Program-made: the position numbers and the translations under genes | Source: a virus | IMG/VR virus record: IMGVR_UViG_3300049489_000384 | Location: 1 to 38,226 of that record | DNA: 38,226 nucleotides | Strand: one strand, 5' to 3' | Shown: piece by piece, positions 16,070-34,604 of the stretch | Numbering within the stretch: position 1 is the stretch's first letter | Layout: the number at the start of each line of letters is the position of its first letter | Notes under the pieces: generated by a model | What the model was told of the DNA's origin: nothing | The model's input: the letters and a program-made list of their open reading frames with translations, nothing else | Database searches by the model: none

Positions 16070-16903
16070 CTAGGACTTGACCCAAACCCCGAAGGTGTCT
16101 CTGGTTTCAATCACACCCCAGATCGCACTTACGGCAACTTCCCACGCCAAAGAGCGAACCATATACTGTGAATCAACCTTGGGTTCCTTCTGGATAGCCA
16201 AACCAATGGCCTCTTCTTGGAACATGAAGTTGTTTTCCACATCCACCGTGGCATCAGTCAAAGTCACGTTGGTTGAGGTAACAACATCCACGCCGTAAAC
16301 CTGACCGAGTTCCCAAGAGTTCTGACGGGGGGTTCCCACGGCATAACCAAGGACGAACTTATCAAGTTTCATAATGTCACCCTTAGACGAGGGACGAATT
16401 GCAAACGTCCTTTTATCGAGTGGCGCATCAGCTTCATCGAGATACACGATTGAAGAAACAATCACTGCATCCGTCAGGGCTGTTCCGGCAGAACCAGTAG
16501 TCTGGGAGAACCCGGTAGCGAGGGTGGCGATAGAAGAATCAATCGCTTTCGCAAGACCGTATCCAGCCTTATTGGTATACTCTTTCATCAGGTCATACTT
16601 CGACTGGACGGCAACGATGTCTTCCAGTTTAAAAGCAACGTACTGATGTTGATTGATCGTTAAATCAATCTTGGTTTCCGTGTTATTCGTGAAAGTAACA
16701 TCGGTTGAAGCGGTCTTTGCAGCCGCAGACAGGTTGGCGAGATTTGGGATATGGATAATATCGCCGTATTTCGCATCCGTGTCATACCGTTTAACTTTCT
16801 TCGACAACTGAAGATTCGCCTCAGTTGCACGAAGAACGTCTGACGCCCAAAGCTCGGGAATCATGTTCGCTGCGGTTGTTACTGTTACTGCTCCTGTAGC
16901 CAT
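16070..16903 (-). CDS. Major capsid (coat) protein
   Basis: 277 residues, near the lower end for HK97-fold coat proteins. The start MATGAVTVTTAANMIPELWASDV (split by the initial Ala/Thr/Val run), the beta-strand segment YGDIIHIPNLANL, a Q-H-x-Y-V-A-F strand, DAPLDKRTFAIRP and the terminal YMVRSLAWEVAVSAIWGV match the coat protein family of many podo- and siphoviruses. It is preceded by a scaffold gene and by GGAG seven bases before the ATG. It forms the icosahedral shell. Confidence 0.85.
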   Translation of the reverse strand: MATGAVTVTTAANMIPELWASDVLRATEANLQLSKKVKRYDTDAKYGDIIHIPNLANLSAAAKTASTDVTFTNNTETKIDLTINQHQYVAFKLEDIVAVQSKYDLMKEYTNKAGYGLAKAIDSSIATLATGFSQTTGSAGTALTDAVIVSSIVYLDEADAPLDKRTFAIRPSSKGDIMKLDKFVLGYAVGTPRQNSWELGQVYGVDVVTSTNVTLTDATVDVENNFMFQEEAIGLAIQKEPKVDSQYMVRSLAWEVAVSAIWGVIETRDTFGVWVKS

Positions 16904-16919
16904 TTAGAACTCCTTAAAT

Positions 16920-17765
16920 TTAATCAACCTCACCACTTAAAAATGCTTGGTGAATTTCGTGGCGTTTAGCCTCGTACTCACCTGGATTGGTTCTTGCGAG
17001 ATTCATAATCTCTGCCCTGTTCCACCTTTTACGGGGGGAGGGTTTACCCATTCCACTTTTCGCACTCTCGGTGACAGCAAGGTTTTTTTGGTTTATCTTG
17101 TCAGCCATCTCCTGCTTACCTTGTTGGCGTAAATCCGTGGCACTATTGCCAGATTGAAGTTTTGCCTTTGCGTAGTAATATTCGGGGCCACGTTGAAAGG
17201 CTCTCTCTCCAGACCTTTGAAACTCCTCTTGGAAGAGTTGTTGCATCGAGTTCTGGTAGGTGTTCCAATCTTCGTGTTCCTCAGCAGCTTCGGTGGATTC
17301 TCTTACGAACTGTTCCGTCAACCTTTGGGCTGTGTTTTCTGTTTTACCCTGTGGCTTTGAAACAGCCTCGCTCAAGAAACTTGCGAGCTTTCTTGCTGAT
17401 ACCTCATCTAAGTCAAGCATCGCCTGGGCTTTCTTCGCTAGATCGCTCCCGGTCTTTTCTTGCTCGAATGAGTTAATTTTCCCTTCAACACGGTCTAACC
17501 GTTCTTGAAGTTCTCTCCTACGCTGGCGTTCTTTCTGAAGTTCAGATAACGGAACGAGTTTTGGTTTCGGGGCTTGAGCCACCGTTTCAGTTCCTTGGGC
17601 CTGAGTTTCAGTCGCCTTGGTTTCCACTGAAGACGATTCAGTAGATTGAGTTGTTTCAGTAATTGTCGTTTCTACCGGCTTTGTTGAACCTGCTTGCTCA
17701 ACGGAAGTAACAGTGTTAGAAATTACTGGCCTTGACTCTGTGACAGTCGTGTTCTGATCGGACAT
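16920..17765 (-). CDS. Scaffolding protein
   Basis: 281 residues with the scaffold hallmarks: a long acidic/Thr/Glu-rich disordered N-terminus (about 1-70), a coiled-coil centre (LSELQKERQRRRELQERLDRV), a helical second half and a Lys/Arg-containing C-terminal end (PSPRKRWNRAEIMNLAR). It lies immediately upstream of the coat gene on the same strand and has an AAGGAG site. It directs procapsid assembly and leaves before or during packaging. Confidence 0.8.
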   Translation of the reverse strand: MSDQNTTVTESRPVISNTVTSVEQAGSTKPVETTITETTQSTESSSVETKATETQAQGTETVAQAPKPKLVPLSELQKERQRRRELQERLDRVEGKINSFEQEKTGSDLAKKAQAMLDLDEVSARKLASFLSEAVSKPQGKTENTAQRLTEQFVRESTEAAEEHEDWNTYQNSMQQLFQEEFQRSGERAFQRGPEYYYAKAKLQSGNSATDLRQQGKQEMADKINQKNLAVTESAKSGMGKPSPRKRWNRAEIMNLARTNPGEYEAKRHEIHQAFLSGEVD

Positions 17766-17799
17766 ACCAATCTCCTTGTTGTAACGCTAACGAGCGAAT

Positions 17800-17816
17800 C
17801 TACGAGACAGTCGTAG
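17800..17816 (-). promoter_or_regulatory. Short inverted repeat between small gene and scaffold gene
   Basis: CTACGA/TCGTAG with a five-base loop lies in the 69-bp gap upstream of the scaffold gene. It may be an RNA processing or regulatory hairpin separating head genes from portal genes. There is no other support. Confidence 0.3.
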
Positions 17817-17834
17817 GCTGTGGAAGGCTAGGTG

Positions 17835-18056
17835 TTAAATGTTTGTCGAGTTAGCCTTAGACTCGACATATTTAAAAACTTTGTCTATCCCACGAAGTTC
17901 ACCGATTGATTTAAAGAGTGAGTCCTCTTTCCGGCTGTTCTTCATGGTATTAATAATTCTTGTTTGCTCGGCTTCGTACCAGAGCAAAAGTCTTTTGTAA
18001 CCTCCGTGATGACGGAGCGATCTGTAATCCTCTACTTCTCTTTCGAGATCATCCAA
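17835..18056 (-). CDS. Small charged helical protein (73 aa)
   Basis: 73 residues, almost fully helical, beginning DDLEREVEDYRSLRHHGGYKRL after the initiator. The start codon is TTG, supported by AGGTGG five bases upstream, and it overlaps the portal stop by eight bases. Proteins of this size and charge are common between portal and scaffold in podoviruses; the role is unknown. Confidence 0.65.
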   Translation of the reverse strand: MDDLEREVEDYRSLRHHGGYKRLLLWYEAEQTRIINTMKNSRKEDSLFKSIGELRGIDKVFKYVESKANSTNI

Positions 18057-20139
18057 CTAAACCACCTGGCGTGTTTTGTGGTACTTCTCCTTGGGGATTC
18101 ACAGTGGGGGGCGCACCAACGCTAGGTAACTGCATGGGTGAACCAACCATCGGATTCATGCCACCAGAGGTCTGTGATAAGTACGTCTGGTGTTCCGCAA
18201 GGTTCTGCTGGAACGCTTGTTCGGACTGTACGGAAATCTTACCGACTTGTTTGAGTATTTGATAAGCCTGTGCGTGAAGTTGGAGATGTAAGAGGTGATT
18301 ATCTCCAGGTTTCGCACTAACTGGCTGACCCATAGCCATCGCCATATTTTCTTCTTTGATTTTCTCAAGTGAGTCCATTTCCGGGGCTAATACTATGGTA
18401 TCCGCCTCAGATTCGGGGAATCCCATATAGACCCATATTTTCTTAATTAACTCAGGTAGATTTGCGATATTGGGAAGGCGAGAAACAATCGACAGGAAGT
18501 TTACGAGCTTGTTCGTCATAATGACGTTGTTCTCGATCTGTCCTGGGCCTTTTGAAACAATATCGAAGTTACCCCAAATTTGTTCGGGGGAAACCCTCTT
18601 AAACGCAGCGCCTTTCTTTCCAACAACCCTAACAATTCTTTCAAACTCGGCGAACTGTTGGTCATATTTGTAGCATCGGTTTAAGAAGGGTTTGAATAGT
18701 TTTTCGTCAATAATCTTAATTCTGTCTTTAAGTCTAATTCCTGCCTGTTGGAACACACCCTGGAACTCAGTAGCGGAGGTGTCTTTCGACATAGCCGTTC
18801 CCTGTAGAGCATCAAGCGCTCCAGAGGCCCGGCGCATATCATCTTTAATGGCGGCAATAATATTCCAACCATTCGCAGAGAAGTCGGTGAGGGGGAGAGG
18901 ACGAATCCCGTTTATATCGTCTGATTTAATACGGGGATTCTTTACAAGTCTAATGTCTCTCTGGACGTTGGCGTTAGTGTCCTCGATCATCGGCATATTA
19001 AGTTGAATTGTCTTACAGTCAACTAACTGTCTAATGGTCGTATTCAGTTCATGCCACTTATCCACAATTGGTTCTATCATCCCAATTCCGTAGAACTCAT
19101 CATCAATCGGAGTCCAGGGAGAGGATAAGAACGGTCTTTCCATATCCCAGAAGGGGTTTTCTTGAAGCCTAATGCAAGACTCGGCCTTACCGTAATCCTC
19201 TTTCTTGTAGGAAGATTCGCCTGTCTTCTCAGAGTGTTGACGCTTCATGGATTGTTTTTCTTGGTCGTCAAATTCCATGACGCAGGTGATAACACCCTCG
19301 AAAGTTAAATACCTATCTCCCTCAATTCCTGTGGTAATAAATTTCGGGATTCTTCCCCAATACTCTACGGTCTTAAATTTCGTAGAGGGGGTGTGGATGG
19401 ATTCTAAGTTGTAATAAATCCCCTTTGTAATTTCCATCCCATCAATAGACTCAGTTTTTCTCTCGTTCTTTTTTAGATCATCGAATGAGTTTGATGTGAG
19501 GTGAATACAACCTTCAAGGTCTTGGATGGAGGACCCAGAACCAACAGGGATGAAATCAAATATAGAAACATATTCCCAATCGGTGTCGTCCATCTTTGGA
19601 ATTGAGATTTCCTTCTCAACTGGAATCCCGATTAGGGGGTCCATGACCTTAACTCTCTTTTTTTCTATCTCCCGTTTGTAGGGGGTTTTAATGAGAGCTG
19701 TTCCGTTGATAAGACACTGATGGATGGTCCGTTCAAACTTTTCTCTTAACTGAATCCTGCGAAGATGGTCAGCACGATAGGCGGTCATAATCTCGGCCTG
19801 TTCATCGTCAGACTCTTCTTGGCCTGTATATTTAAACGGGGGGTCTTGTGCGAAAAACCCTTCCACGACATTCGCCTTTAAAGTGTCAACCTCAACCTGC
19901 GGTTCAGGGTCTACAACCTGGCAACCGTCAGATGGTTTATTCTTATCAATCAATCTATAAACTTGGTCGAACTCAAGCCACTTCTGGCTTCTAGCTCTAT
20001 GGTCTTCAAAGTTCTCATCAATCTTTTCTTTAACAAAATCATAGGCTCTCTGAAGAGCTTTCGGGTCGGTCCAGACTTGGGGGATAAGTGGTTTTGGTTT
20101 TTCTTGAACAGCGTCTAAGACTTCTTGACCAGGCATCAT
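18049..20139 (-). CDS. Portal protein, P22-like
   Basis: 696 residues, close to P22 portal length (about 725). Features are the N-terminal helical region (KALQRAYDFVKEKIDENFEDHR), CLINGTALIKTPYKRE in the wing region, FYGIGMIEPIVDKWHELNTTIRQLVD near the crown/stem, and a C-terminal DALQGTAMSKDTSATEFQG loop followed by long helices. The C-terminal tail is Gln/Pro-rich. It begins three bases after the large terminase stop and forms the dodecameric DNA channel to which the terminase docks. Confidence 0.85.
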   Translation of the reverse strand: MMPGQEVLDAVQEKPKPLIPQVWTDPKALQRAYDFVKEKIDENFEDHRARSQKWLEFDQVYRLIDKNKPSDGCQVVDPEPQVEVDTLKANVVEGFFAQDPPFKYTGQEESDDEQAEIMTAYRADHLRRIQLREKFERTIHQCLINGTALIKTPYKREIEKKRVKVMDPLIGIPVEKEISIPKMDDTDWEYVSIFDFIPVGSGSSIQDLEGCIHLTSNSFDDLKKNERKTESIDGMEITKGIYYNLESIHTPSTKFKTVEYWGRIPKFITTGIEGDRYLTFEGVITCVMEFDDQEKQSMKRQHSEKTGESSYKKEDYGKAESCIRLQENPFWDMERPFLSSPWTPIDDEFYGIGMIEPIVDKWHELNTTIRQLVDCKTIQLNMPMIEDTNANVQRDIRLVKNPRIKSDDINGIRPLPLTDFSANGWNIIAAIKDDMRRASGALDALQGTAMSKDTSATEFQGVFQQAGIRLKDRIKIIDEKLFKPFLNRCYKYDQQFAEFERIVRVVGKKGAAFKRVSPEQIWGNFDIVSKGPGQIENNVIMTNKLVNFLSIVSRLPNIANLPELIKKIWVYMGFPESEADTIVLAPEMDSLEKIKEENMAMAMGQPVSAKPGDNHLLHLQLHAQAYQILKQVGKISVQSEQAFQQNLAEHQTYLSQTSGGMNPMVGSPMQLPSVGAPPTVNPQGEVPQNTPGGLVG

Positions 20140-20142
20140 ATT

Positions 20143-22701
20143 TTAGTATCCAGTGACTTTATTTGAGGGAAGGTACTTATCCATCTGTTGCATTTCGTTG
20201 TAGGTGTGGAATCTCTCCCAACCCATATAGCAAATCATGGCTGCCATAACACGGTCATCATGGCAACCACGCTCGGCGTTCGAGAAGCCGTCCTCGCCGA
20301 TGACATAAGTCATTAATTCCTCCACAAGCTCCTTGGAGGGGAGAACGGCTGTACGTTCTCTAAGTACCTTGCCGAACTTTGAAATCATAAGGGGTTTTGA
20401 TTTCGAGTCCGTCCACCAGCCCAGCTTCTTTGTGCGAATGTCCGAGCGTTGGTCTACCTGGTACTTATAGTAGAGCCGAGAATATAATTTTTTGATCTCA
20501 TTGAGGGTAGCGATACCGAAAGAATTTGCCTCAACTGCAATCCAGGCGTTATTGTAATAACGTCCCAAATCAATGAGTTTTTTACCTAGGGTATCGGGGG
20601 GAATTTGTCCGTGAAGTTCTGCAACCTGGGTAAGATTTTGATCGAAGACTACTGCACACGATGGGTCACCACCACTTCCTAGACCAACGTCTGAACCGAT
20701 AAAGTATCGTGTACCCGGGTGGGGTTCGTCCCAAACGTACAGAGTGCCTCTCTCATCTTTTACTATAACACCCTTGTCAAGATATCCTCGTTTTTTATAC
20801 TCTTTACAGTTATCTAAGTAGTATTGAACAGAATCGGCATCGAACACCATAGACCCTGAAAGCAGTTTAAATTCTCCGTTAATACGAATGTCATACTCAG
20901 CTCCGTGGTACTTCCGCATCTGTTCTTCTTTTTGGACTTTGGACAGATATGGGTTGTGTTTAATCCCTGCGCCCGAACACCAGATTCTTTTACCGTCTTG
21001 TCTGCGATATAGCTCTTTGTAGGCCCAGGTCATACCAACTCTTCGGCCTGTGTTATCCTCGAATATTGGGGTCATGGTGAGCCAGATATCCAGGTCTTTT
21101 CCTGCGGCGATACGAGCCATACACTCAGACCAGATTTCTCTTGGGGGTTCTTCATCAAACCAAATCCACCTCTTTGCGGCTCCAGCAAAACGAGTCACAC
21201 CTGAATCACAGTTTGAAACAATCAATCCGTCAGCTAAAAATCTATGGTATTTTTCGACTGTTATATCAAACACCTCTTCTTCCCCATCATCAACAATAGA
21301 AACTATTTTACAGTACCTATTGGAACATCTTTTATGCTTCTTATTTGTTGGAATATAGTTTGATAAATATGATGATGCTGACTCTGAAGCTATCGCTTTG
21401 CCAGGAACACGCACCTGAGATAGAAATTTTTGTCTAGCTTCTTTCTGCTTCAAACACACCCTATATGATTCCCTATATTTTCCTCCGGGTATAGTCTGCA
21501 TACAGACCCTTATCCCAAGTCGCTGTAATAGAAGTTTAACGTCTTGAGCTAAACGGTATGATGTGGTTGAATAACTAATCTGACTATCACTAATGCAACC
21601 ATCAGTTGCAAATAGGAACCCAAGAAATAAACGAATATCTAAATCTGTTTGTTGGAACACCTCATCTGGTATGAATTTCTCGTAACTATATTTACCCCAT
21701 AAGCCATAACCACGAAGTAGCTGAATGAGGGGGTTGTTATTCGGTCCGACACCACGCTTGCAAGTGATTTCGTAATCTTTTTTATGTTTTGATCTCAGTC
21801 TAGCTTTTAATCCTTTTGGAAGAAGTAATTTTGCCTCTTGAATCAATAAATCATTTTCGCATGACAAAATAGCGCTCTTACTTGTTAGACACCCATCTCC
21901 GATTAATAATGCTACCCATGCCAGCTTCCAATTTTCAAGAGTCTTACTCCCTGTAATTGAAAATTCTGGGGCAATCAACCTATCGCCAATTTTTAAATCC
22001 TTCGCTTGCCTCCAACCAGATGTAGTCATTATTTTATGGTCTTTAGTTACACGAATTGAGTGACCCCGCTTAGTCGTAATTTTTAATATCGGTTTAACTC
22101 CATTCGACCATACATCAAGCACTTTAGATACTTTTGACCTGTGCCAGCAATCAGTAGAAATTACAGAGTGTCCAATTTTTATATCTGCTATTGGTCTTGA
22201 TATGCCATCTGCACACTGAACTCTTTGTGATGCCGCTAAACAGCTTTTGAATCCGATTTTAGACCCATTTGTTAATTCGATAATGTCTATGATTCCTGCT
22301 TTAACGTGCCATATTTTTTTGATCGCAGATTTTGGTAGGAGTTCTAAAACAATCTTTTGTGCGGCTTCACGCTGTACGTTGTAGTCTTTAGAAACTATCC
22401 AACCCTCGTTTGGGGTTTGGACATCTTTGTATGGGTGGATTCCGCAAGCGTAGTAGACGGCCTCTGCTGCTCCTGCGTGAGTTTTGCCGACACGATTTCC
22501 CCAATGTAGCAATCGGTAAGCACATTGGTTTCGATGGAACTCTTCCTGTTTTGAATGGGGGTCGTAAAAGAATATTCCGTTATCCTTGGCCCATACAGTG
22601 TCGAACCACTCAACGCTTTGATGTTCTTTTTTAGTGAGTCCATGCTTCGCCTCGAACTGCTCTTCGGTTAATATTTGTATATCACGCTCGAAATCATCCA
22701 T
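20143..22701 (-). CDS. Terminase large subunit, interrupted by an intein
   Basis: 852 residues encoded; removing the 344-residue intein leaves about 508, normal for this ATPase-nuclease. Walker A is at 67-74 (WGNRVGKT). The Walker B/catalytic Glu region is IWFDEEPP at 513-520. A C-terminal RNase H-like nuclease carries FIGSDVGLGSGGDPS, a VEANSFG strand and the CHDDRV acidic pair near the end. The intein splits FKS from CDSGVTRFAG just before Walker B, so the protein is inactive until spliced. The start overlaps the upstream gene by eight bases. It cuts concatemers and pumps DNA into the procapsid through the portal. Confidence 0.92.
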   Translation of the reverse strand: MDDFERDIQILTEEQFEAKHGLTKKEHQSVEWFDTVWAKDNGIFFYDPHSKQEEFHRNQCAYRLLHWGNRVGKTHAGAAEAVYYACGIHPYKDVQTPNEGWIVSKDYNVQREAAQKIVLELLPKSAIKKIWHVKAGIIDIIELTNGSKIGFKSCLAASQRVQCADGISRPIADIKIGHSVISTDCWHRSKVSKVLDVWSNGVKPILKITTKRGHSIRVTKDHKIMTTSGWRQAKDLKIGDRLIAPEFSITGSKTLENWKLAWVALLIGDGCLTSKSAILSCENDLLIQEAKLLLPKGLKARLRSKHKKDYEITCKRGVGPNNNPLIQLLRGYGLWGKYSYEKFIPDEVFQQTDLDIRLFLGFLFATDGCISDSQISYSTTSYRLAQDVKLLLQRLGIRVCMQTIPGGKYRESYRVCLKQKEARQKFLSQVRVPGKAIASESASSYLSNYIPTNKKHKRCSNRYCKIVSIVDDGEEEVFDITVEKYHRFLADGLIVSNCDSGVTRFAGAAKRWIWFDEEPPREIWSECMARIAAGKDLDIWLTMTPIFEDNTGRRVGMTWAYKELYRRQDGKRIWCSGAGIKHNPYLSKVQKEEQMRKYHGAEYDIRINGEFKLLSGSMVFDADSVQYYLDNCKEYKKRGYLDKGVIVKDERGTLYVWDEPHPGTRYFIGSDVGLGSGGDPSCAVVFDQNLTQVAELHGQIPPDTLGKKLIDLGRYYNNAWIAVEANSFGIATLNEIKKLYSRLYYKYQVDQRSDIRTKKLGWWTDSKSKPLMISKFGKVLRERTAVLPSKELVEELMTYVIGEDGFSNAERGCHDDRVMAAMICYMGWERFHTYNEMQQMDKYLPSNKVTGY
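21211..22242 (-). mobile_element. Intein with LAGLIDADG homing endonuclease in terminase
   Basis: Residues 154-497 of the terminase ORF. Block A starts with Cys154 (CLAASQRVQCADG). Block B has the T/H region RVTKDHKIM near 217-225. Two LAGLIDADG helices are LLIGDGCL (about 265-272) and LGFLFATDGCI (about 360-370). Block F is VFDITVEKYHRFLADG, and the C-terminal junction is Ser-Asn before Cys498. The splicing residues Cys1, terminal Asn and +1 Cys are present. The penultimate residue is Ser where His is usual, known in some active inteins. The AT-rich DNA contrasts with the surrounding terminase, as expected for a mobile element. Confidence 0.92.
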
Positions 22702-23296
22702 GATTTGCTATTGAAAATAACCTATCAATTGTGAATCCGTATTCTTTTTTAAGTTCATTAATCCTTCTGAATTGGTAGTTGTATCCAGCGAAGTTACTAA
22801 TAGATTTATTCCTCTCTATGTTTTCTATTTGATCGTGAAAGCCCATCACGGAGTTGGCGTACTTTGTTTCACCTCCGTCAATTCCGATCGTGTAAAAAGA
22901 TTTAGCCCCCAAGATGGCGAGTAGTTCTATCACTGGATGGATGGAGAATCCATCAATGGTGACAGTGGGGGCCGGAGAGTGGGGTGGGTGTGTGGAGAGA
23001 TTATAGAAATAGTGGTTTGGAAAAAGTGATTTCTGGTCCTTCCAATTTCCTTTTCCAACTTGAGTCTCATAGGGGGTGAGTAGGGAAGAGTCCCGAAATA
23101 CCATCTCGTCAGACTCCACGATTTCCGAGTGGATGGTGTGGCTCATATCTACATCAACGATTCTTGCGACTTGATTTAAACCGATAGAGAAATAATCCTT
23201 TAGATTAACTTCGGGGATTCGGTCTAGGCTTGGCCCCTTACCAACAATCAAGATCGGTTTTTTCGGGAGTGCAAAGTCCCTTAAAAAGTCTCTCAT
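22694..23296 (-). CDS. DUF115/MAF-like putative glycosyltransferase-associated protein
   Basis: 200 residues beginning with a strand-loop-helix ILIVGKGPSLDRIPE, the G-x-GPSL motif of the MptE/DUF115 group that includes motility accessory factors and pseudaminic/legionaminic acid transferases. A second conserved-looking block is SIHPVIELLAILGAKSFYTIGIDGG. AAGGAG precedes the ATG, and the gene overlaps its upstream neighbour by 59 bp and the terminase by eight. In this cassette it may attach or prepare a sugar on a protein or glycan; the substrate is unknown. Confidence 0.65.
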   Translation of the reverse strand: MRDFLRDFALPKKPILIVGKGPSLDRIPEVNLKDYFSIGLNQVARIVDVDMSHTIHSEIVESDEMVFRDSSLLTPYETQVGKGNWKDQKSLFPNHYFYNLSTHPPHSPAPTVTIDGFSIHPVIELLAILGAKSFYTIGIDGGETKYANSVMGFHDQIENIERNKSISNFAGYNYQFRRINELKKEYGFTIDRLFSIANHG

Positions 23297-24134
23297 CTAT
23301 CTCCTTCTTACAGTTGTGATTTGCTTTAAGACAATGACAAAATGGGTCGGGGGCTATCACACAAAGTCTGTCCCTGTCGATTCTGGGGTCTAGTAAAAGT
23401 TCCGGGTGACAATATCCCCCAAAGATACATACACAGTTCGTGTGAAGTGCTAAGGATAGTGGGAGCATAAAAGACGGGGGACAGAGAACCATATCAACAG
23501 AATCCACAGCCCCGATCATAGCGTGGAGATTAAGCTCCATTGTGCAATCAATTCCTTCTGGGACGTAATCCTCTAACCACTCAGATTCGTTTTCTTGTGT
23601 GATGTTGATGTAGGTGTATTGGGGGTTGTTCTCAATGAATAATTGAAAGTATCTTGTGTGGGGGTTTCTGGCTGGGAGGTTAAAGTCTTTTCTCTGTGTG
23701 GGTAGTTTCACAAGACAAACTGGTTTTACGAATGATTGTAGAATCGGCTCTATCTTGTGCGCCCATCCTGGGTTTGGGTCGTAGTGAAGAAGATTTGCTG
23801 GAGGTAGGAATCTTACGGCGTCATGTTGTTGGATGATCTCCTGAAGACCCTCGGTGATAGACCAGTTATCCGTTTTCATCCGATTTGAAATTAGAGTAAT
23901 AGTCTTTTCAAACTTCTTTTCCGTAGTCCAGAAGTCAATTGGTTTTTCATCTACGTTCTTTTGTTGGGTGGGGAGGAGTTTTGTTTGTGGCTTTGAAAAT
24001 AAGTATTCGTCTGAATAGAGTTCAGGAAAGGGGGTCTCAACACAAATCTTTCTGTACCTTCTGGCTAGTGCTTCCACGAAAGGTCTTGCGTAGATATTAT
24101 CTCCAAGACCCTGATGTGTAATAACTTTAATCAT
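23238..24134 (-). CDS. Heptosyltransferase-like (GT9-type) glycosyltransferase
   Basis: 298 residues. The N-terminus KVITHQGLGDNIYARPFVEALARRY has the G-[LI]-GD-x-[IL] pattern and helix of ADP-heptose:LPS heptosyltransferases. The C-terminal half has MIGAVDSVDMVLCPPSFMLPLSLAL and CVCIFGG, equivalent to the sugar-nucleotide-binding part. Late cysteines (CHCLKANHNCKK) are unusual. It overlaps the upstream methyltransferase stop by ATGA. It probably transfers a sugar to host LPS or to a virion or DNA component. Confidence 0.65.
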   Translation of the reverse strand: MIKVITHQGLGDNIYARPFVEALARRYRKICVETPFPELYSDEYLFSKPQTKLLPTQQKNVDEKPIDFWTTEKKFEKTITLISNRMKTDNWSITEGLQEIIQQHDAVRFLPPANLLHYDPNPGWAHKIEPILQSFVKPVCLVKLPTQRKDFNLPARNPHTRYFQLFIENNPQYTYINITQENESEWLEDYVPEGIDCTMELNLHAMIGAVDSVDMVLCPPSFMLPLSLALHTNCVCIFGGYCHPELLLDPRIDRDRLCVIAPDPFCHCLKANHNCKKEIDERLFKGLCTPEKTDLDCW

Positions 24135-24601
24135 GGTTTCTTCGCCTCAAAGTGAAGCTCTCCTGAACCGTGTTTGGATTTATTTTCAATGTCTACGAAT
24201 CCTGTGATAAATAAGAACCTCTCTAACTTGGTAGACCAAAAGACATTCTTGTGGCGCATGAACTCGTTAGCTTTAGGGTCTGCGCCAAAGATGGTTTTCA
24301 TAAGGCAACAGTCTCTAATCTCACGATTAGCCCAAGCGGAGAAGGCCCACCCACAATCGGGGACTTTAATGACAAGAGTCCCGCCGGGCTTTAAAACCCT
24401 CCACCATTCACGAAGAACTGTAAAGGTTTCCTCCGGGTCGAAATGTTCTAAAAGATGTGCGGCGTAAATCTCATCAGCCTGGTTATCTTCTAGGGGGAGG
24501 TTTGCAACATCTGCTTCAATATCAGGAAAACACCTTGGGTCTGCGTCTACTCTGATGTAACCTGGTTTTCTTGAGTGTCCGGCTCCCAGATCGTATTTCA
24601 T
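24131..24601 (-). CDS. Class I SAM-dependent methyltransferase
   Basis: 156 residues from the ATG at 24601, which overlaps the upstream stop by ATGA and has GGAG six bases upstream. Motif I is KYDLGAGHSRKPGYIRVDAD, with the SAM-binding E/D region DIEADVANLPLEDN. EIYAAHLLEHF is motif IV and VLKPGGTLVIKVPD is the post-VI strand, as in small-molecule or sugar O-methyltransferases. Two methyltransferases back to back with glycosyltransferases suggest methyl decoration of a glycan or lipid. Confidence 0.8.
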   Translation of the reverse strand: MKYDLGAGHSRKPGYIRVDADPRCFPDIEADVANLPLEDNQADEIYAAHLLEHFDPEETFTVLREWWRVLKPGGTLVIKVPDCGWAFSAWANREIRDCCLMKTIFGADPKANEFMRHKNVFWSTKLERFLFITGFVDIENKSKHGSGELHFEAKKP

Positions 24602-25167
24602 GCTTTCTCCACGAAAATATCCCACTCACAAAAAGATGAGTCGATGAAGATAATTCTGTATCCAAGTTCTTTGAGTGTGTTTTGTAGAAACTCGTCAGTG
24701 ACCCAAACATGGGGGAAGTCTATCCCGTCATCTTTTACTTCAGCTCCAACAGGGATAGAAAAAAGACCGTAGGGGGCCAAAGAGAGGACTCTCTTTAAAA
24801 TATCTTTCCACTCATGGAGTCCAAAGTGTTTCATCACAGCAAAGCAAATAACTAGGTCTGCTGTTGGGATTCTGGAGTCTCGAATATCCCCATAAACATA
24901 ATCCCCGCTAGGGCGTCTTTCTTTACATTTAGAAAGCCCTGTAGTTGATTTATCAAACCCGGTGTACTTAATATCGTCTGGAATCTTGGCGGCTAGATGC
25001 CCTGCCCCACAGCCGATCTCAACCACTGATTTAATTTGTCGTAAAGATATAGCTCTCTGAAAAGACCTGATCTGTAAATTATGGACTATGGGGGTATCGA
25101 CCCAATCCTTGTCTGTTTTCTTAAAGTGTGATTCTAGGTAATCGGTGTAATCTGGCTTATGCTGCAT
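24598..25167 (-). CDS. Class I SAM-dependent methyltransferase
   Basis: 189 residues. Motif I is SVVEIGCGAGHLAAKIPD (about 47-64), then YTGFDKSTTGLSKCKER, DLVICFAVMKHFGLHEW (motif IV) and SLAPYGLFSIPVGAEVKDDG. The UbiE/Methyltransf_11-like layout is complete. GGAGCTACCAA precedes the ATG, which overlaps the upstream glycosyltransferase stop by 11 bp. The second methyltransferase of the cassette; the acceptor is unknown. Confidence 0.8.
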   Translation of the reverse strand: MQHKPDYTDYLESHFKKTDKDWVDTPIVHNLQIRSFQRAISLRQIKSVVEIGCGAGHLAAKIPDDIKYTGFDKSTTGLSKCKERRPSGDYVYGDIRDSRIPTADLVICFAVMKHFGLHEWKDILKRVLSLAPYGLFSIPVGAEVKDDGIDFPHVWVTDEFLQNTLKELGYRIIFIDSSFCEWDIFVEKA

Positions 25168-26014
25168 TTGGTAGCTCCGGGGTTTGGTTTAGGTACATTT
25201 CCTTGAAAGTCTCAAACGCAACTTCGGGGGTAGTGAATAAAAGATTAACATGACGTTTTGAAATAATGTCTTTAGGGTCGGCGTAGGAACCGCGCATCTT
25301 CTCAATCCAAGGTTGAGGGGGAATGAAGTGAAGGGTAGGCACACTTAGTACCCCACCTAAGACTCCAACCCCAGAAGGGTAGGCGACAAGGAAATCTAGC
25401 TGTTTAATTAAATTAACCAGTTGTCCACAGAAGGTTTTTCCTACAAAAGACTTGATAATAAGTCCTTCCTCTTTCGCCAAGTCATCACCAAGACCTTTAT
25501 CAAATCCAGCCCCAATAACTACAAAAGAACACCCCCCAAGAAAGTCTCTGACCAAGGTCATAAACTCAACCCACTCCTTAACCTCCCAAAAATGCCATCC
25601 GTAGGTCTGATACTTTGAGGGGTAGATGCCGATTAACTTTCCTTGGAGTCCAAGATCAATAGGCTCGTCTTTAATGTCGTAGTGAAATGAGGTTGGAAGG
25701 GTTGGGAGATAAGTCTCAATGCGGTTTCCTTGTTCTAGGTGGGGGTTGGCAGAGAGGAAGTACTCTCCTGGGTCAAGAGAGGGGAGATCGGTGTTTGAAG
25801 GTAGAATCCGCTTGGCCTTCACAAAATCCCCCACATAGGAATAATTAGAGTAGGCTGAGTTAATAACCCTAGGGAGTAGGCGGGTGAAGGGTAGTGACCT
25901 CTGAGGTTCGTCTTTTACGATCTTTAACTGAAAAGGGTAGGGGAAATTAACGAGTTTAGAGTAAATCCAAGATATGTCCCCAATACCTGATGGGACGTTA
26001 AATATATAGCTCAT
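25157..26014 (-). CDS. GT9-like glycosyltransferase
   Basis: 285 residues. The start SYIFNVPSGIGDISWIYSKLVN parallels the GDxxWxxP/L start of heptosyltransferases. The second half contains CSFVVIGAGFDKGLGDDLAKEEG, then FVGKTFCGQLVNLIKQLDFLVAYPSGVGVLGGVLSVPTLHF in pieces, i.e. the L-x-GKT-x-x-xQ-L and SG-x-x-x-LG-x-x-L-x-VPT signatures of GT9. It heads the five-gene glyco/methyl cassette and starts five bases after a small Cys-rich gene. Confidence 0.7.
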   Translation of the reverse strand: MSYIFNVPSGIGDISWIYSKLVNFPYPFQLKIVKDEPQRSLPFTRLLPRVINSAYSNYSYVGDFVKAKRILPSNTDLPSLDPGEYFLSANPHLEQGNRIETYLPTLPTSFHYDIKDEPIDLGLQGKLIGIYPSKYQTYGWHFWEVKEWVEFMTLVRDFLGGCSFVVIGAGFDKGLGDDLAKEEGLIIKSFVGKTFCGQLVNLIKQLDFLVAYPSGVGVLGGVLSVPTLHFIPPQPWIEKMRGSYADPKDIISKRHVNLLFTTPEVAFETFKEMYLNQTPELPNAA

Positions 26015-26019
26015 AGGCT

Positions 26020-26169
26020 CTACTGGTGGTCCCTATAATCAGCTTCGATAAAACAAGGAATACAAAGAAGGATGTATTCCCGGCAGTGTTTAGTACAATA
26101 CTCCCACTTTAAAGAGTCCTTAGGTTTAGTGGGTTTGGAGGATGTGTTGTCTACATTCTTCTCGATCAT
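26020..26169 (-). CDS. 49-aa Cys-rich protein
   Basis: A frame of 49 residues with a Lys/Thr/Ser-rich first half and YCTKHCREYILLCIPCF near the end, a C-x3-C-x6-C-x2-C set that could bind zinc. GGAG lies four to five bases before the ATG. It overlaps the upstream small gene by 44 bp in another frame and ends five bases before the glycosyltransferase start. No family recognised. Confidence 0.5.
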   Translation of the reverse strand: MIEKNVDNTSSKPTKPKDSLKWEYCTKHCREYILLCIPCFIEADYRDHQ

Positions 26170-26254
26170 ATTGCTCCATCATTCTAAATAACCCCGAATT
26201 AGCGTTAAAGCCCCTCAAAACCCACATTTCCCCACAGTGGTTACAGATAGTCAT
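26126..26254 (-). CDS. 42-aa zinc-finger-like protein
   Basis: MTICNHCGEMWVLRGFNAN and a terminal EECRQHILQTH give a C-x2-C ... C-x2-H-x4-H arrangement. The start at 26254 is preferred because GAGG lies five bases upstream and the gene then begins 17 bases after the previous stop. An alternative ATG at 26281 would overlap that stop and lacks a good site. Role unknown. Confidence 0.5.
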   Translation of the reverse strand: MTICNHCGEMWVLRGFNANSGLFRMMEQYDREECRQHILQTH

Positions 26255-26270
26255 AAGTTCCTCGTAGCCG

Positions 26271-26456
26271 TCATTCCTCATTACTTGAGAACCCAATACC
26301 CTTTCTTTCTGAGATAAGCTCAATAATCTCCTCAAGGTCGTCATAAAGTCTAGCGAAGTCAACGTAGGTGATCTGAACAGCCGGAGAACCCCCATAAATC
26401 CTCCTAGCTTCAGAGAACCGGGTCAGAATGTTGTCTATTTTCTTGTTATTAGTCAT
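26271..26456 (-). CDS. 61-aa hypothetical protein
   Basis: 61 residues, helical and charged (IDNILTRFSEARRIYGG, then FARLYDDLEEIIELISERKG). An AAGGGA-like site lies before the ATG. It belongs to a run of small genes between the HNH gene and the glyco cassette. No motif recognised. Confidence 0.6.
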   Translation of the reverse strand: MTNNKKIDNILTRFSEARRIYGGSPAVQITYVDFARLYDDLEEIIELISERKGIGFSSNEE

Positions 26457-26520
26457 AAAGTCCCTTTAGCGACCTCCTAATAGCCCGTTTTATGTGCCAG
26501 GACATGCGTAGGAAGCAATC

Positions 26521-26748
26521 CTAGCGTTTTAAACGGTATGGGCTATACGGGTATAAGGCACAACCCACGGAATCACACTCATCAGATTCACCCATCCCAT
26601 TGCAATCATAGCACTTAGCTCTAATTGCCTGACTTCTAATGAGTTTTTTACCATTTAAATGCTTCAAAAGGTCTGTTTTGCCGACTCTAGATGTGCCAGA
26701 TTTAGCGGATTCTAGTAACTCATTTAATGGCTCAGTTATGGCGCTCAT
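26521..26748 (-). CDS. Small zinc-binding phage protein (IRAKCYDC family)
   Basis: 75 residues; the second half reads AIRAKCYDCNGMGES, DSVGC and ALYPYSPYRLKR. The pattern AIRAKC-x2-C ... C-x-LYPY-x-PY is a recurrent small family in phage and prophage genomes, usually of unknown function and often near terminase or integrase genes. GGAGG precedes the ATG, which overlaps the HNH gene stop by one base. The four cysteines probably bind zinc. Confidence 0.75.
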   Translation of the reverse strand: MSAITEPLNELLESAKSGTSRVGKTDLLKHLNGKKLIRSQAIRAKCYDCNGMGESDECDSVGCALYPYSPYRLKR

Positions 26749-27527
26749 TAGAATAACCTCCTATTAATTGATTTAAGGATTGCTAGTACGCACTCTTTAG
26801 TTTGGGACTCAGACTTCTTACTGAAACCGATTGTCCCGTGGTAGGCGGTGTGACAGTTCGCACACAAAACCATCAAATTATCTATGGAGTCGCTTCTGGT
26901 TGCGTTATTAATGTGATGCGTTTGGAGAGATAGAATATTGGAATGGCCACAAGCCTCGCACGACCCAATCCTAGTCTTTATAGACCTTGCACGATCTGAT
27001 GGTTTAGCCTTATTCTTCTTCCTAGAACATACCCGGCTACAATAAACCTGAAAATTTCGCCGAGTATTGAAGTTATTACTACAAAATTGGCATATCTTTA
27101 AATATTCGGGTTTAGTGATCTTTTCCTTTGGTTCTTTTCGTGTACTTTCAACCAGAAACTTACACGGATGACATCTTAATTGTCTGCCGGAGGTTGGCTC
27201 GAAACTAGAGTTACATATAGAACAGACCTTTGAAATAAACAATCTTTCATCAGGTTTGAATTTGCCAGAAACCTTTATTACGCTTCGGCGGCTAATCTTT
27301 GATCTGAACTTGCACCTATACGAACAATATACCTTTGATATGTTAATAGACTCAAACTCTATATTACAAGATGGGCACGTTTTAATAGTAATTCTGGAGG
27401 GGGTGGGGTAGATATTAATAATAGGTTCGCTTGCAGACTCCCCCCAGGCTTCGGCTAGGCTAGGCTCACTAGCTATGCGCCCTAGCTTGCTGATCTCTGG
27501 CTTGTTCGCTGAGTTTTGAGCTATCAT
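26748..27527 (-). CDS. HNH endonuclease with repeated zinc-finger modules
   Basis: 259 residues. Three C-x2-C-x(n)-[YR]C-x2/3-C modules precede the nuclease: CPSCNIEF with YCSYRC, CSICNSSF with RCHPC, CQFCSNNF with YCSRVC. The C-terminal HNH domain is CEACGHSNILSLQTHHINN with LMVLCANCHTAYHG. It lies immediately downstream of the small terminase, a frequent position for packaging-associated or homing HNH proteins. The DNA is AT-richer than its neighbours, and the finger architecture resembles the frameshifted gene at 34601, which suggests a mobile homing gene. Confidence 0.82.
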   Translation of the reverse strand: MIAQNSANKPEISKLGRIASEPSLAEAWGESASEPIINIYPTPSRITIKTCPSCNIEFESINISKVYCSYRCKFRSKISRRSVIKVSGKFKPDERLFISKVCSICNSSFEPTSGRQLRCHPCKFLVESTRKEPKEKITKPEYLKICQFCSNNFNTRRNFQVYCSRVCSRKKNKAKPSDRARSIKTRIGSCEACGHSNILSLQTHHINNATRSDSIDNLMVLCANCHTAYHGTIGFSKKSESQTKECVLAILKSINRRLF

Positions 27528-27552: not shown

Positions 27553-28020
27553 TTATGTGTTAGGAATTATATCTAGCTTTTGATGCTCTATCTCTTTTAC
27601 TTTTTTATACTTAGAGCGAATCTTGGAGATTGTCTCAATCAGTGTTAAAGGGTCCATTCCTTCAATGGCTAGAAAATTGTTAGTTGTTCTATTAACATTT
27701 GTTTCAAAGAAACCAGAGGCTTTGCCTAGAGCTTCCCAATATTGTTTCTTAACTTGGGGATTTTGCTCGGATTCAAATAGCTTATACGTTTTTGCAATAT
27801 AAGAGTCTTTATCCAATAACAAGCGCTCTCTCTCAGAGGATTCTAACTGAGCTATGTACTCCTTAATCTGTGGCTGCCTGAGCATCCTATAACCCGTAGT
27901 GGAGGCTGATACTGGGGAGTAACCAGCTTGTTTGGCTGCCTCTGTGGCATTGTTGAGCGTAGCGTATAGATCGGCGAATAGCTTTTGTTTCTTACTTAGG
28001 GGCATTGTGGGGGCTTTCAT
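27553..28020 (-). CDS. Terminase small subunit
   Basis: 155 residues. The start LSKKQKLFADLYATLNNATEAAKQAGYSP with YRMLRQPQIKEYI is the DNA-binding helix-turn-helix domain of the Terminase_2 family. The rest is helical and probably oligomerises. First gene of the late block; an alternative ATG five codons downstream is equally plausible, as neither has a clear Shine-Dalgarno. It recognises packaging DNA and regulates the large subunit. The HNH gene and glyco cassette separate it from its partner, an unusual distance of almost 5 kb. Confidence 0.88.
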   Translation of the reverse strand: MKAPTMPLSKKQKLFADLYATLNNATEAAKQAGYSPVSASTTGYRMLRQPQIKEYIAQLESSERERLLLDKDSYIAKTYKLFESEQNPQVKKQYWEALGKASGFFETNVNRTTNNFLAIEGMDPLTLIETISKIRSKYKKVKEIEHQKLDIIPNT

Positions 28021-32650: not shown

Positions 32651-32841
32651 GGTTGGTGAGCGTCACGAACCAGACAGCAGTAAGCTGAAAAAATTCTAAT
32701 TGAATAGCACCCAGAGCTTCACGGGCATAAATTTGAAGCCACAGCGATATGAGCCTACCACCGCCGTAGGCAGTTGGGGTCACTATGAGATTAGATACAT
32801 ATAAATCTAAATGAGAGCATTGGATATATGCCCGAATGGGC
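32651..32841 (+). ncRNA. Hairpin-rich structured RNA candidate upstream of an HNH gene
   Basis: Between two genes I find a chain of short perfect stems: GGTT/AACC around GTGA/TCAC (32651-32671), CAGC/GCTG (32675-32687), ATTC/GAAT (32693-32705), GCTTCA/TGAAGC (32716-32739), GCCTAC/GTAGGC (32753-32771), TTAGAT/ATCTAA (32791-32810) and GCCC/GGGC (32830-32841). Coding potential is absent for about 190 bp in an otherwise packed genome. Position and structure recall HEARO, the HNH endonuclease-associated RNA of IscB systems (omegaRNA), but the downstream HNH protein lacks RuvC. The family assignment is unverified. Confidence 0.6.
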
Positions 32842-32857
32842 GGGGTGTGGAGAAGAA

Positions 32858-33229
32858 ATGAAGATAAAGTGGCGAATAGAACCTGAATTGTTTGGTTTGA
32901 GAAAGAAAATTCTAAAAGAAGCTGGTCATAAGTGCCATTACTGCGGTGGAAAGGCGTGGCAGTTAGATCATATCACCCCGGTTTATCTAGGTGGAACCCA
33001 TGATGAGGAAAACCTAGTCTCTTGCTGCGGGAGGTGCAATCACTTAAAGGGGATAATGGCCTACTCAGACTTTAAGCATTTAAGGTTATGGGAAGGGGAT
33101 TTTAAAGCAATAAAAAAACAAAGGCGTGTTCTGCTTAAAAAAGCGGGTGAGCAAACACCTGCTACAAATACGATGTGCGGGCATGGGGCAGTAAGGCGGT
33201 GGTGTTGCAAGTGCAGGTATTCTAAATGA
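32858..33229 (+). CDS. HNH endonuclease
   Basis: 123 residues from the ATG preceded by GGAGAAGAA. The HNH core is GHKCHYCGGKAWQLDHITPVYLGG, in pieces, with DEENLVSCCGRCNHLKG. The second histidine of the catalytic set lies in LDHI and the Asn in EEN. The C-terminus adds a further Cys/His group (MCGHGAVRRWCCKCRYSK), a second metal site. There is no RuvC or bridge helix. It is separated from its upstream gene by the structured RNA candidate and overlaps the next gene by ATGA. Either a homing endonuclease or a packaging-type nicking enzyme. Confidence 0.85.
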   Translation: MKIKWRIEPELFGLRKKILKEAGHKCHYCGGKAWQLDHITPVYLGGTHDEENLVSCCGRCNHLKGIMAYSDFKHLRLWEGDFKAIKKQRRVLLKKAGEQTPATNTMCGHGAVRRWCCKCRYSK

Positions 33230-34126: not shown

Positions 34127-34221
34127 GAGCCGCCGGGTATAAGTGTTCGTGTAAGAAAAAGTTTCTTAATCTAAAGGACGTTATTAAATGCCTAAAAAAG
34201 CACCAAATAAAAAGAAAATAA
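34123..34221 (+). CDS. Possible 32-aa Cys/Lys-rich peptide
   Basis: A GTG-started frame overlaps the micro-membrane gene by four bases and the next gene by 34. GYKCSCKKKFLNLKDVIKCLKK has three cysteines and many lysines, suggesting a small zinc-knuckle. Low confidence: no clear ribosome site. Confidence 0.3.
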   Translation: MRAAGYKCSCKKKFLNLKDVIKCLKKHQIKRK

Positions 34222-34604
34222 GAAAACAATCAAATCAGCCGGTTTCAAAGATAAAAAGGGAGTGTATGGAATTGGCAAAAAGGATTGTTAGCGCCAGAGA
34301 TGGGGATATATGTCAGAAATGCGGTGAGAGAGTTTACGGGTCTAATCGCCAGCGATCTCACGTTATCCCTGTCTCCGCAGGAAACAAACTGGCCTTTGAC
34401 ACAATAAACATGAAGGTTCTTTGTATGCACTGTCATTTGTACTGGTGGCACAAGAATCCATTGGAGGCTAGTGAGTGGTTTGAGGCTAAGTTTCCAGAAA
34501 GACATAAGTACCTTCAGGGGAATAAGGGTTTATGCCAGATGAAGTACCAAGATTTTGTTGATCTCCGTGAGAAATTGCGACAAGAGATGGAGATTCTACT
34601 TTGA
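34188..34604 (+). CDS. NinG-like HNH protein
   Basis: 138 residues. After a basic N-terminus (PKKAPNKKKIRKQ) comes ICQKCGERVYGSNRQRSHVIPVSAG, in pieces, with FDTINMKVLCMHCHLYWWHKNP and EWFEAKFPERHKYL. The C-x2-C ... SHVIP ... N ... C-x2-CH arrangement is the phage recombination/NinG type of HNH fold. NinG proteins accompany Rap-type Holliday-junction processing in lambdoid phages. It may cut recombination intermediates before packaging. The stop overlaps the next TTG start. Confidence 0.7.
   Translation: MPKKAPNKKKIRKQSNQPVSKIKRECMELAKRIVSARDGDICQKCGERVYGSNRQRSHVIPVSAGNKLAFDTINMKVLCMHCHLYWWHKNPLEASEWFEAKFPERHKYLQGNKGLCQMKYQDFVDLREKLRQEMEILL

Follow-up and report, generated by a model that had tools for sequence, protein, structure and literature searches.

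A five-gene glycosyltransferase and methyltransferase cassette between the terminase genes of a viral genome, with a possible role in virion protein glycosylation

The DNA analysed here (IMG/VR virus record IMGVR_UViG_3300049489_000384, 38,226 bases, referred to as the window) carries a cassette of five overlapping open reading frames (ORFs) between the genes of the small and large terminase subunits, terS and terL. The five ORFs were read from the sequence on the minus strand, from 26014 down to 22694. They are predicted to encode two glycosyltransferase (GT)-like proteins, two S-adenosylmethionine (SAM) methyltransferases and a DUF115-like protein. We analysed the cassette computationally and considered what it may add to, and where. 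The genes of the cassette and its surroundings are as follows.

25157-26014, minus strand: orphan glycosyltransferase-like gene (orphan GT), 285 amino acids (aa); putative GT9-like product with a GT-B C-lobe pattern (hhalign).
24598-25167, minus strand: MT2, SAM methyltransferase of the Methyltransf_25/11/12 class, 189 aa (Pfam).
24131-24601, minus strand: MT1, SAM methyltransferase of the Methyltransf_11 class, 156 aa from ATG (Pfam).
23238-24134, minus strand: GT9-fold glycosyltransferase, phrog_6804, 298 aa; C-terminal finger motif at residues 266-277.
22694-23296, minus strand: MptE/DUF115-like protein with a predicted Maf/GT42 sialyltransferase-type fold, 200 aa (weak Pfam match and model).
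20143-22701, minus strand: terL, terminase large subunit with an in-frame intein (phrog_2, E 4.6e-23; PF14890, PF14528).
27553-28020, minus strand: terS, terminase small subunit (PF03592, E 3.7e-18).
26748-27527: HNH endonuclease, between terS and the cassette.
26126-26748: three small overlapping ORFs upstream of the cassette, with Cys-rich products and good ribosome-binding sites; no family assigned.

The initial annotation had described the five genes as one tightly overlapping unit in a gap of nearly 5 kb, and both the unit and its coordinates were confirmed. The orphan GT gene and MT2 overlap by 11 nucleotides (nt), and CCGGAG precedes the start of MT2. MT2 and MT1 overlap by 4 nt (ATGA) when MT1 is counted from the ATG at 24601 (156 aa), which was preferred over the GTG at 24625 (164 aa); GTGGAG precedes this ATG. 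MT1 and the GT9 gene also share a 4-nt ATGA. The GT9 gene and the DUF115-like gene overlap by 59 nt, and the start codon in this overlap follows a strong ribosome-binding site (AAGAAGGAGATAG-ATG). The DUF115-like gene, the last of the cassette, overlaps terL by 8 nt. The distance between terS and terL is 4851 nt, of which the cassette occupies about two thirds; the HNH endonuclease gene and the three small ORFs make up the rest. The G+C content of the five genes (0.42-0.46) is close to that of the whole record (0.43). No membrane-like segment was found in the five products (top 19-residue hydropathy mean, 1.54), and the proteins are predicted to be soluble. The cassette lies on the same strand as the portal and capsid genes of the window, and its position in the operon suggests late expression. 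Promoter-like and terminator-like sites occurred in the window in chance numbers only. The best minus-strand promoter-like site (28222-28193, ahead of terS) carries no weight as proof.

By its profile match, the gene at 23238-24134 is a true member of phrog_6804, a family annotated in PHROGs as 'unknown function', and this one of the two earlier GT9-like calls was borne out by profile, model and hhalign alike. Residues 7-281 of the 298-residue protein matched positions 6-259 of the 275 in the profile (E 1.7e-25). A tblastn search with the GT9 protein returned 25 phage records at 21-29% identity. Nineteen of these were Pseudomonas phages, including D3 (orf12), and one family member came from a Synechococcus phage. 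Alignment A1, made from six GT9 relatives, found 237 relatives in viral contigs, 80 of which were kept as loci. A search with the larger alignment A3 gave 13 loci from bacterial genomes, every one of them Proteobacteria by title. All 64 distinct sequences, the window included, share an invariant C-x-C-x4-H-x-C-x-K finger near the C-terminus. Against bacterial GT9 proteins, the window protein gave E 7.2e-7 in hhalign.

The GT9 protein was modelled with AlphaFold2 (AF2) from 31 sequences at a mean predicted local distance difference test (pLDDT) score of 85.7. The first 18 Foldseek rows were all TibC chains (E 3.1e-8 to 6.0e-7), and VIA-align superposed 245 residues on TibC (Z 18.0; root-mean-square deviation (rmsd) 2.8). 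The GT9-type GT-B core was thus confirmed in the model. Below TibC and the GT9 protein 3tov, which tied with it, the VIA-align rows were HepII (Z 16.5), three plant NDH-complex entries (15.7-16.2) and WaaC (15.8), and other folds followed from 10.6. TibC is described as a protein O-heptosyltransferase, in which a four-Cys iron finger (C339, C342, C358, C370) is required for assembly and activity (PMC4358343). The viral structure library contained further phage heptosyltransferase-like proteins, one annotated as Aah/TibC; these add nothing on function.

The product of 22694-23296 had been called DUF115-like. The sequence part of this call was weak (PF01973, E 5e-4, under the Pfam cut-off), and the fold agreed with it. 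In relatives of the locus, the GT42-like protein has a G-x-GPS motif, and a profile built from it (A2) matched the Cst-II sialyltransferase (E 1.1e-3) and an MptE-type pyrophosphokinase (E 0.027). The window protein matched A2 in hhalign with a probability of 72% and E 3.3e-5, which is weak sequence support; a match to phrog_4603 was sought in PHROGs and none was found. The model was of moderate quality (pLDDT 62.9). VIA placed it beside Maf (5mu5) and Cst-I (2p2v), both at Z 9.2, with Cst-II and an MptE-type HPPK (8sd5, 8.9), all within Z 8.9-9.2; thiamin pyrophosphokinase scored 7.8. The Foldseek matches were weak (best E 0.018, Cst-II). With moderate confidence, we believe that the modelled protein has a Maf/GT42/MptE-type fold. 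In the literature, Maf of Magnetospirillum is a putative transferase of pseudaminic acid, and the Campylobacter protein Maf4 is a putative legionaminyl transferase that acts on flagellin (PMC9298399). From the fold relatives of the two proteins, adenosine diphosphate (ADP)-heptose would be the donor for the GT9 protein, and an acid sugar activated with cytidine monophosphate (CMP) would be the donor for the Maf/GT42-like protein. A phage contig that lacks the GT9 family (L208) also carries an MptE/GT42-like gene (4044-5150), roughly 3 kb upstream of its terL.

Both proposed SAM methyltransferases passed the Pfam cut-offs: MT1 with PF08241 (E 2.1e-11), and MT2 with PF13649 (E 1.7e-9) and PF08242 (E 6.4e-8). 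The hits of both were mostly small-molecule families. The nearest viral relative of MT1 lies in L213 (1-5840), among consecutive ORFs that, read by eye, resemble glycan enzymes: glycosyltransferases, a DegT-type aminotransferase and the MT1-related methyltransferase. In L007 (7926-9112; MW202573.1), an MT1 relative and a gene annotated as an A197-like transferase stand directly after a P22-like coat gene. This is another coat-linked sugar/methyl pair, made of different families. The surroundings of these MT1 relatives are consistent with glycan methylation.

The second GT9-like call, for the orphan GT gene at 25157-26014, held less well. The protein had no match in Pfam, PHROGs, NCBIfam, PDB sequences, the phage tblastn search or the viral contig scan. 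Against 11 bacterial GT9 proteins, hhalign gave a weak match over 101 C-lobe columns (E 1.7e-3, probability 15%); an unrelated control gave E 0.35. The protein is probably GT9-like, weakly so by this profile match. Direct homology to phrog_6804 was considered for it and was unsupported.

The initial annotation had also allowed that the products act on newly made DNA, that is, that the phage DNA is glycosylated and methylated. The cassette does sit between the terminase genes, and a review states that some phages glycosylate their DNA bases (PMC12619734). Against this, no DNA glycosyltransferase was among the listed fold rows of the GT9 or DUF115-like models. Enzymes that make hydroxymethyl bases or modify nucleotides were absent from the 10 other window ORFs scanned, although the window may be a fragment, and the matches of MT1 and MT2 are mostly to small-molecule families. 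DNA modification received no support and was dropped as the main explanation; we regard it as very improbable.

The GT9 gene has regular partners in other phages. Loci were collected through this gene and included many near-duplicates, so the counts are given as distinct loci. The tallies rely on profiles A2-A4, whose sequences came from part of these loci, so that this part matches by construction. A2 contains 20 of 24 representatives, one wrong-frame ORF and others too alike or truncated having been left out; A3 contains the window and 30 of 31 representatives; and A4 contains 24 of 25. The gene-family clusters include some wrong-frame ORFs, and names were taken only from PHROGs or the D3 annotation. 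A GT42/MptE-like gene and a methyltransferase gene both accompany the GT9 gene in 67 of 74 distinct loci, the window excluded. On the same strand, the GT42-like gene lies within 1.5 kb in 71 of the 74 and the methyltransferase gene within 1 kb in 68. With duplicates kept, both partners were found in 90 of 99 loci, one of the 99 being the short stretch of the window itself (L001). Seven distinct loci are short of one partner (L005, L034, L046, L054, L055, L088 and L098), and three of them (L034, L046 and L055) stop within 25 nt of the GT9 frame. For comparison, the same profiles were applied to 81 loci that had been collected through terL or MT1 (80 from a terL scan of viral contigs, plus L213). 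The GT42-like gene was found in 1, the methyltransferase in 2 and GT9 in 0.

The three genes correspond to phrog_4603 (sialyltransferase-like; in D3), phrog_6804 (GT9-like) and phrog_6564 (methyltransferase; in D3 and Mulvp2), and are called the trio below. A named head, neck or tail family lies within 4 kb on the same strand in 56 of 63 distinct loci, the window excluded. In Pseudomonas phage D3, the trio is orf7, orf12 and orf13, interspersed with head-tail genes, and in Psp6 and Mulvp2 it likewise lies inside the head-neck block. In Eowyn the trio is contiguous, and its GT42-like gene is annotated 'structural protein'. Judged by these genomes, the trio spans unrelated phage types. Of 63 distinct relatives, 32 also have a collagen-like protein gene close to the trio (for example L037, 6086-6721). 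Its product is a possible glycan acceptor in those relatives; no obvious equivalent was seen in the window. Downstream of the trio, some 20 relatives carry another methyltransferase gene and another MptE-like gene (L057, 5875-6804, and like loci; clusters 11 and 12).

The window shares with the trio a GT9 gene of the same family with the same finger, and the linkage of this gene to a GT42/MptE-like gene and methyltransferases within a packaging/head operon. It differs in its order, which is GT-MT-MT-GT9-GT42-like in the window and GT42-like-GT9-MT in the trio. It also differs in its site between terS and terL, in its methyltransferase families, in the lack of a phrog_4603 match and in its one extra orphan GT. 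Homology of the window methyltransferases to the trio methyltransferase was unsupported (no phrog_6564 match; hhalign probability 29% and 0.5%). The GT42-like protein of the window falls into the same fold class as its counterpart in the trio, and may or may not belong to that family. What the window carries is a rearranged and divergent form of the trio theme. The initial annotation had pointed to synteny as a check. The GT9 family was found to be linked to such genes in relatives, and the glycan/methyl theme of the cassette stands; the five-gene order and the terS-terL placement of the window were not found among the relatives recovered. Scans of viral contigs with single proteins (GT9, portal, orphan GT, DUF115-like and capsid) gave no relatives, and phage tblastn searches with the orphan GT, the DUF115-like protein and MT2 gave no matches. 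The GT9 family was absent from all 81 terL/MT1 loci and few of these had other trio genes, so there is no near relative in which the exact locus could be compared. The best relative by capsid protein was Anabaena phage A-4L (31% identity). No annotated glycosyltransferase or methyltransferase was found among the 11 features around its terminase, and the cassette therefore looks accessory.

Another explanation is that these are accessory genes gathered by chance, with separate targets and no common pathway, for example a modifier of nucleotide sugars or small molecules beside unrelated methyltransferases. In favour of this are the general families of MT1 and MT2, which are not homologous to the methyltransferase of the trio, the orphan GT without relatives in the phage tblastn search or the viral contig scan, and a gene order seen nowhere else. 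However, the genes overlap and are uniform in G+C, and other phages repeatedly combine a GT9 gene with a GT42-like gene and a methyltransferase gene. We consider a chance gathering improbable.

Overall, we believe that the cassette most likely decorates virion proteins with a short methylated glycan at the time of assembly, and we give this reading a probability of about 0.5. In the proposed scheme, the GT9/TibC-like enzyme would take a heptose-type sugar from a nucleotide sugar of the host, probably one activated with ADP, and attach it to Ser/Thr residues of a protein of the capsid, neck or tail. A CMP-activated acid sugar would be used by the Maf/GT42-like enzyme to start or extend the chain, and the orphan GT perhaps also starts or extends it. 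The two methyltransferases would then O-methylate the glycan. The overlap with terL would couple the expression of the cassette to packaging, and with the glycan in place the surface of the particle would be masked or changed. The analysis itself gives the gene order and overlaps, the fold assignments and the linkage of the homologous genes to head/neck genes; from these we infer the donors, the acceptor, the order of the steps, their timing and the benefit to the phage. Virion proteins are favoured because of the likeness to TibC, which acts on protein, and to the Maf superfamily, the predicted solubility and the tie to packaging and head genes. The suggestion of the initial annotation, a methylated-glycan modification of virion proteins, was strengthened in this respect by the TibC chains at the top of Foldseek, the Maf fold rows and the trio beside head/neck genes, while the acceptor remains putative.

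Several results weigh against this interpretation. The strongest is that the trio occurs in phages with unrelated heads, which leaves no single shared virion acceptor; a host acceptor such as lipopolysaccharide (LPS) would explain it. The GT9 protein 3tov ties with TibC at Z 18.0 in VIA-align (rmsd 3.4, 262 residues), and lipooligosaccharide-acting GT42 rows tie with Maf for the DUF115-like model. The GT9 family falls below the cut-off of TIGR04414 (TibC/AAH): one of six members matches, at E 0.02 and 13.8 bits versus 200, and the window GT9 protein has no match. The finger is not exclusive to TibC, as a C-x2-C-x4-C cluster with an extra Cys is present after the DSG/DTG motif in 4 of 11 bacterial GT9 proteins. 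The idea that the finger marks protein heptosyltransferases was considered and dropped, since a WaaF-type alignment and the same 4 of 11 proteins place Cys there. From the alignments, it may be called a conserved family feature in a place similar to that of TibC's finger, and nothing more. The order, site and methyltransferases of the window, finally, are unlike those of the trio.

The host acceptor would be LPS or another surface glycan that is modified late. The inner core would be extended and methylated from the ADP-heptose and CMP-sugars of the cell, and this would block superinfection or the loss of progeny on receptor-bearing debris. HepII (Z 16.5), WaaC (Z 15.8) and lipooligosaccharide sialyltransferases are among the fold neighbours, the 13 bacterial genome loci are without exception Proteobacteria, and a trio common to unrelated phages is what a shared host acceptor would predict. 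On the other side, the head/neck placement and the terL overlap in the window suit assembly better, Foldseek puts TibC nearer than WaaC or HepII, and one member of the GT9 family comes from a Synechococcus phage. Cyanobacterial LPS is not known to contain heptose. We consider the modification of a host surface glycan unlikely, yet it is the leading alternative.

Besides the trio, the cassette may be compared with three known systems. The window GT9 protein shares with TibC/AAH (BAHT) the GT9-type GT-B core, a metal-finger-like motif after the C-lobe and the top Foldseek match. TibC (406 aa) has an N-terminal beta-barrel (residues 1-97), whereas the window protein (298 aa) lacks it and its model aligns from TibC residue 98. 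The finger of the window protein has three Cys and one His, versus four widely spaced Cys in TibC, and unlike TibC/AAH the protein has no autotransporter partner. The DUF115-like protein shares with the Maf/GT42/MptE superfamily the predicted fold and a G-x-GPSL start motif, but consists of the small core domain only (200 aa). In mycobacteriophages, phage glycosyltransferases are described as modifying capsid and tail-tube subunits (Freeman et al. 2023, as cited in PMC12619734 and PMC10877033). That system belongs to actinobacterial phages and is likened to the window by its described role, not by enzyme families.

A wider version of this proposal can be put forward only tentatively. O-glycosylation of virion proteins would be widespread in phages of Gram-negative bacteria. 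Finger-bearing TibC-like and Maf/GT42-like enzymes, the finger being that of the TibC-like one, would use host LPS-type precursors (ADP-heptose and CMP-acid sugars) to place a methylated glycan on the capsid or neck, and the window would be a rearranged five-gene version coupled to packaging. The virion glycosylation found in the literature concerns mycobacteriophages; if the proposal is true, it would be common in phages of Gram-negative bacteria too, among them classical phages (D3, Psp6). No description of the trio was found in the titles or abstract openings of the open-licence papers that the searches listed. If true, the modification would also bear on antibody recognition, capsid-sensing defences and adsorption. 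Moreover, phrog_6804, which has no assigned function, would gain a testable role and be joined to two named, barely characterised families as one system.

Other features of the window were also noted. The terL intein carries a LAGLIDADG endonuclease domain (PF14890, E 1.8e-19; PF14528, E 1.3e-14). Two more HNH genes lie on the opposite strand, at 32828-33229 and 34188-34604. Within 16070-20139, the capsid (31% identity) and portal (about 20%) are nearest, distantly, to those of freshwater cyanophage podoviruses.

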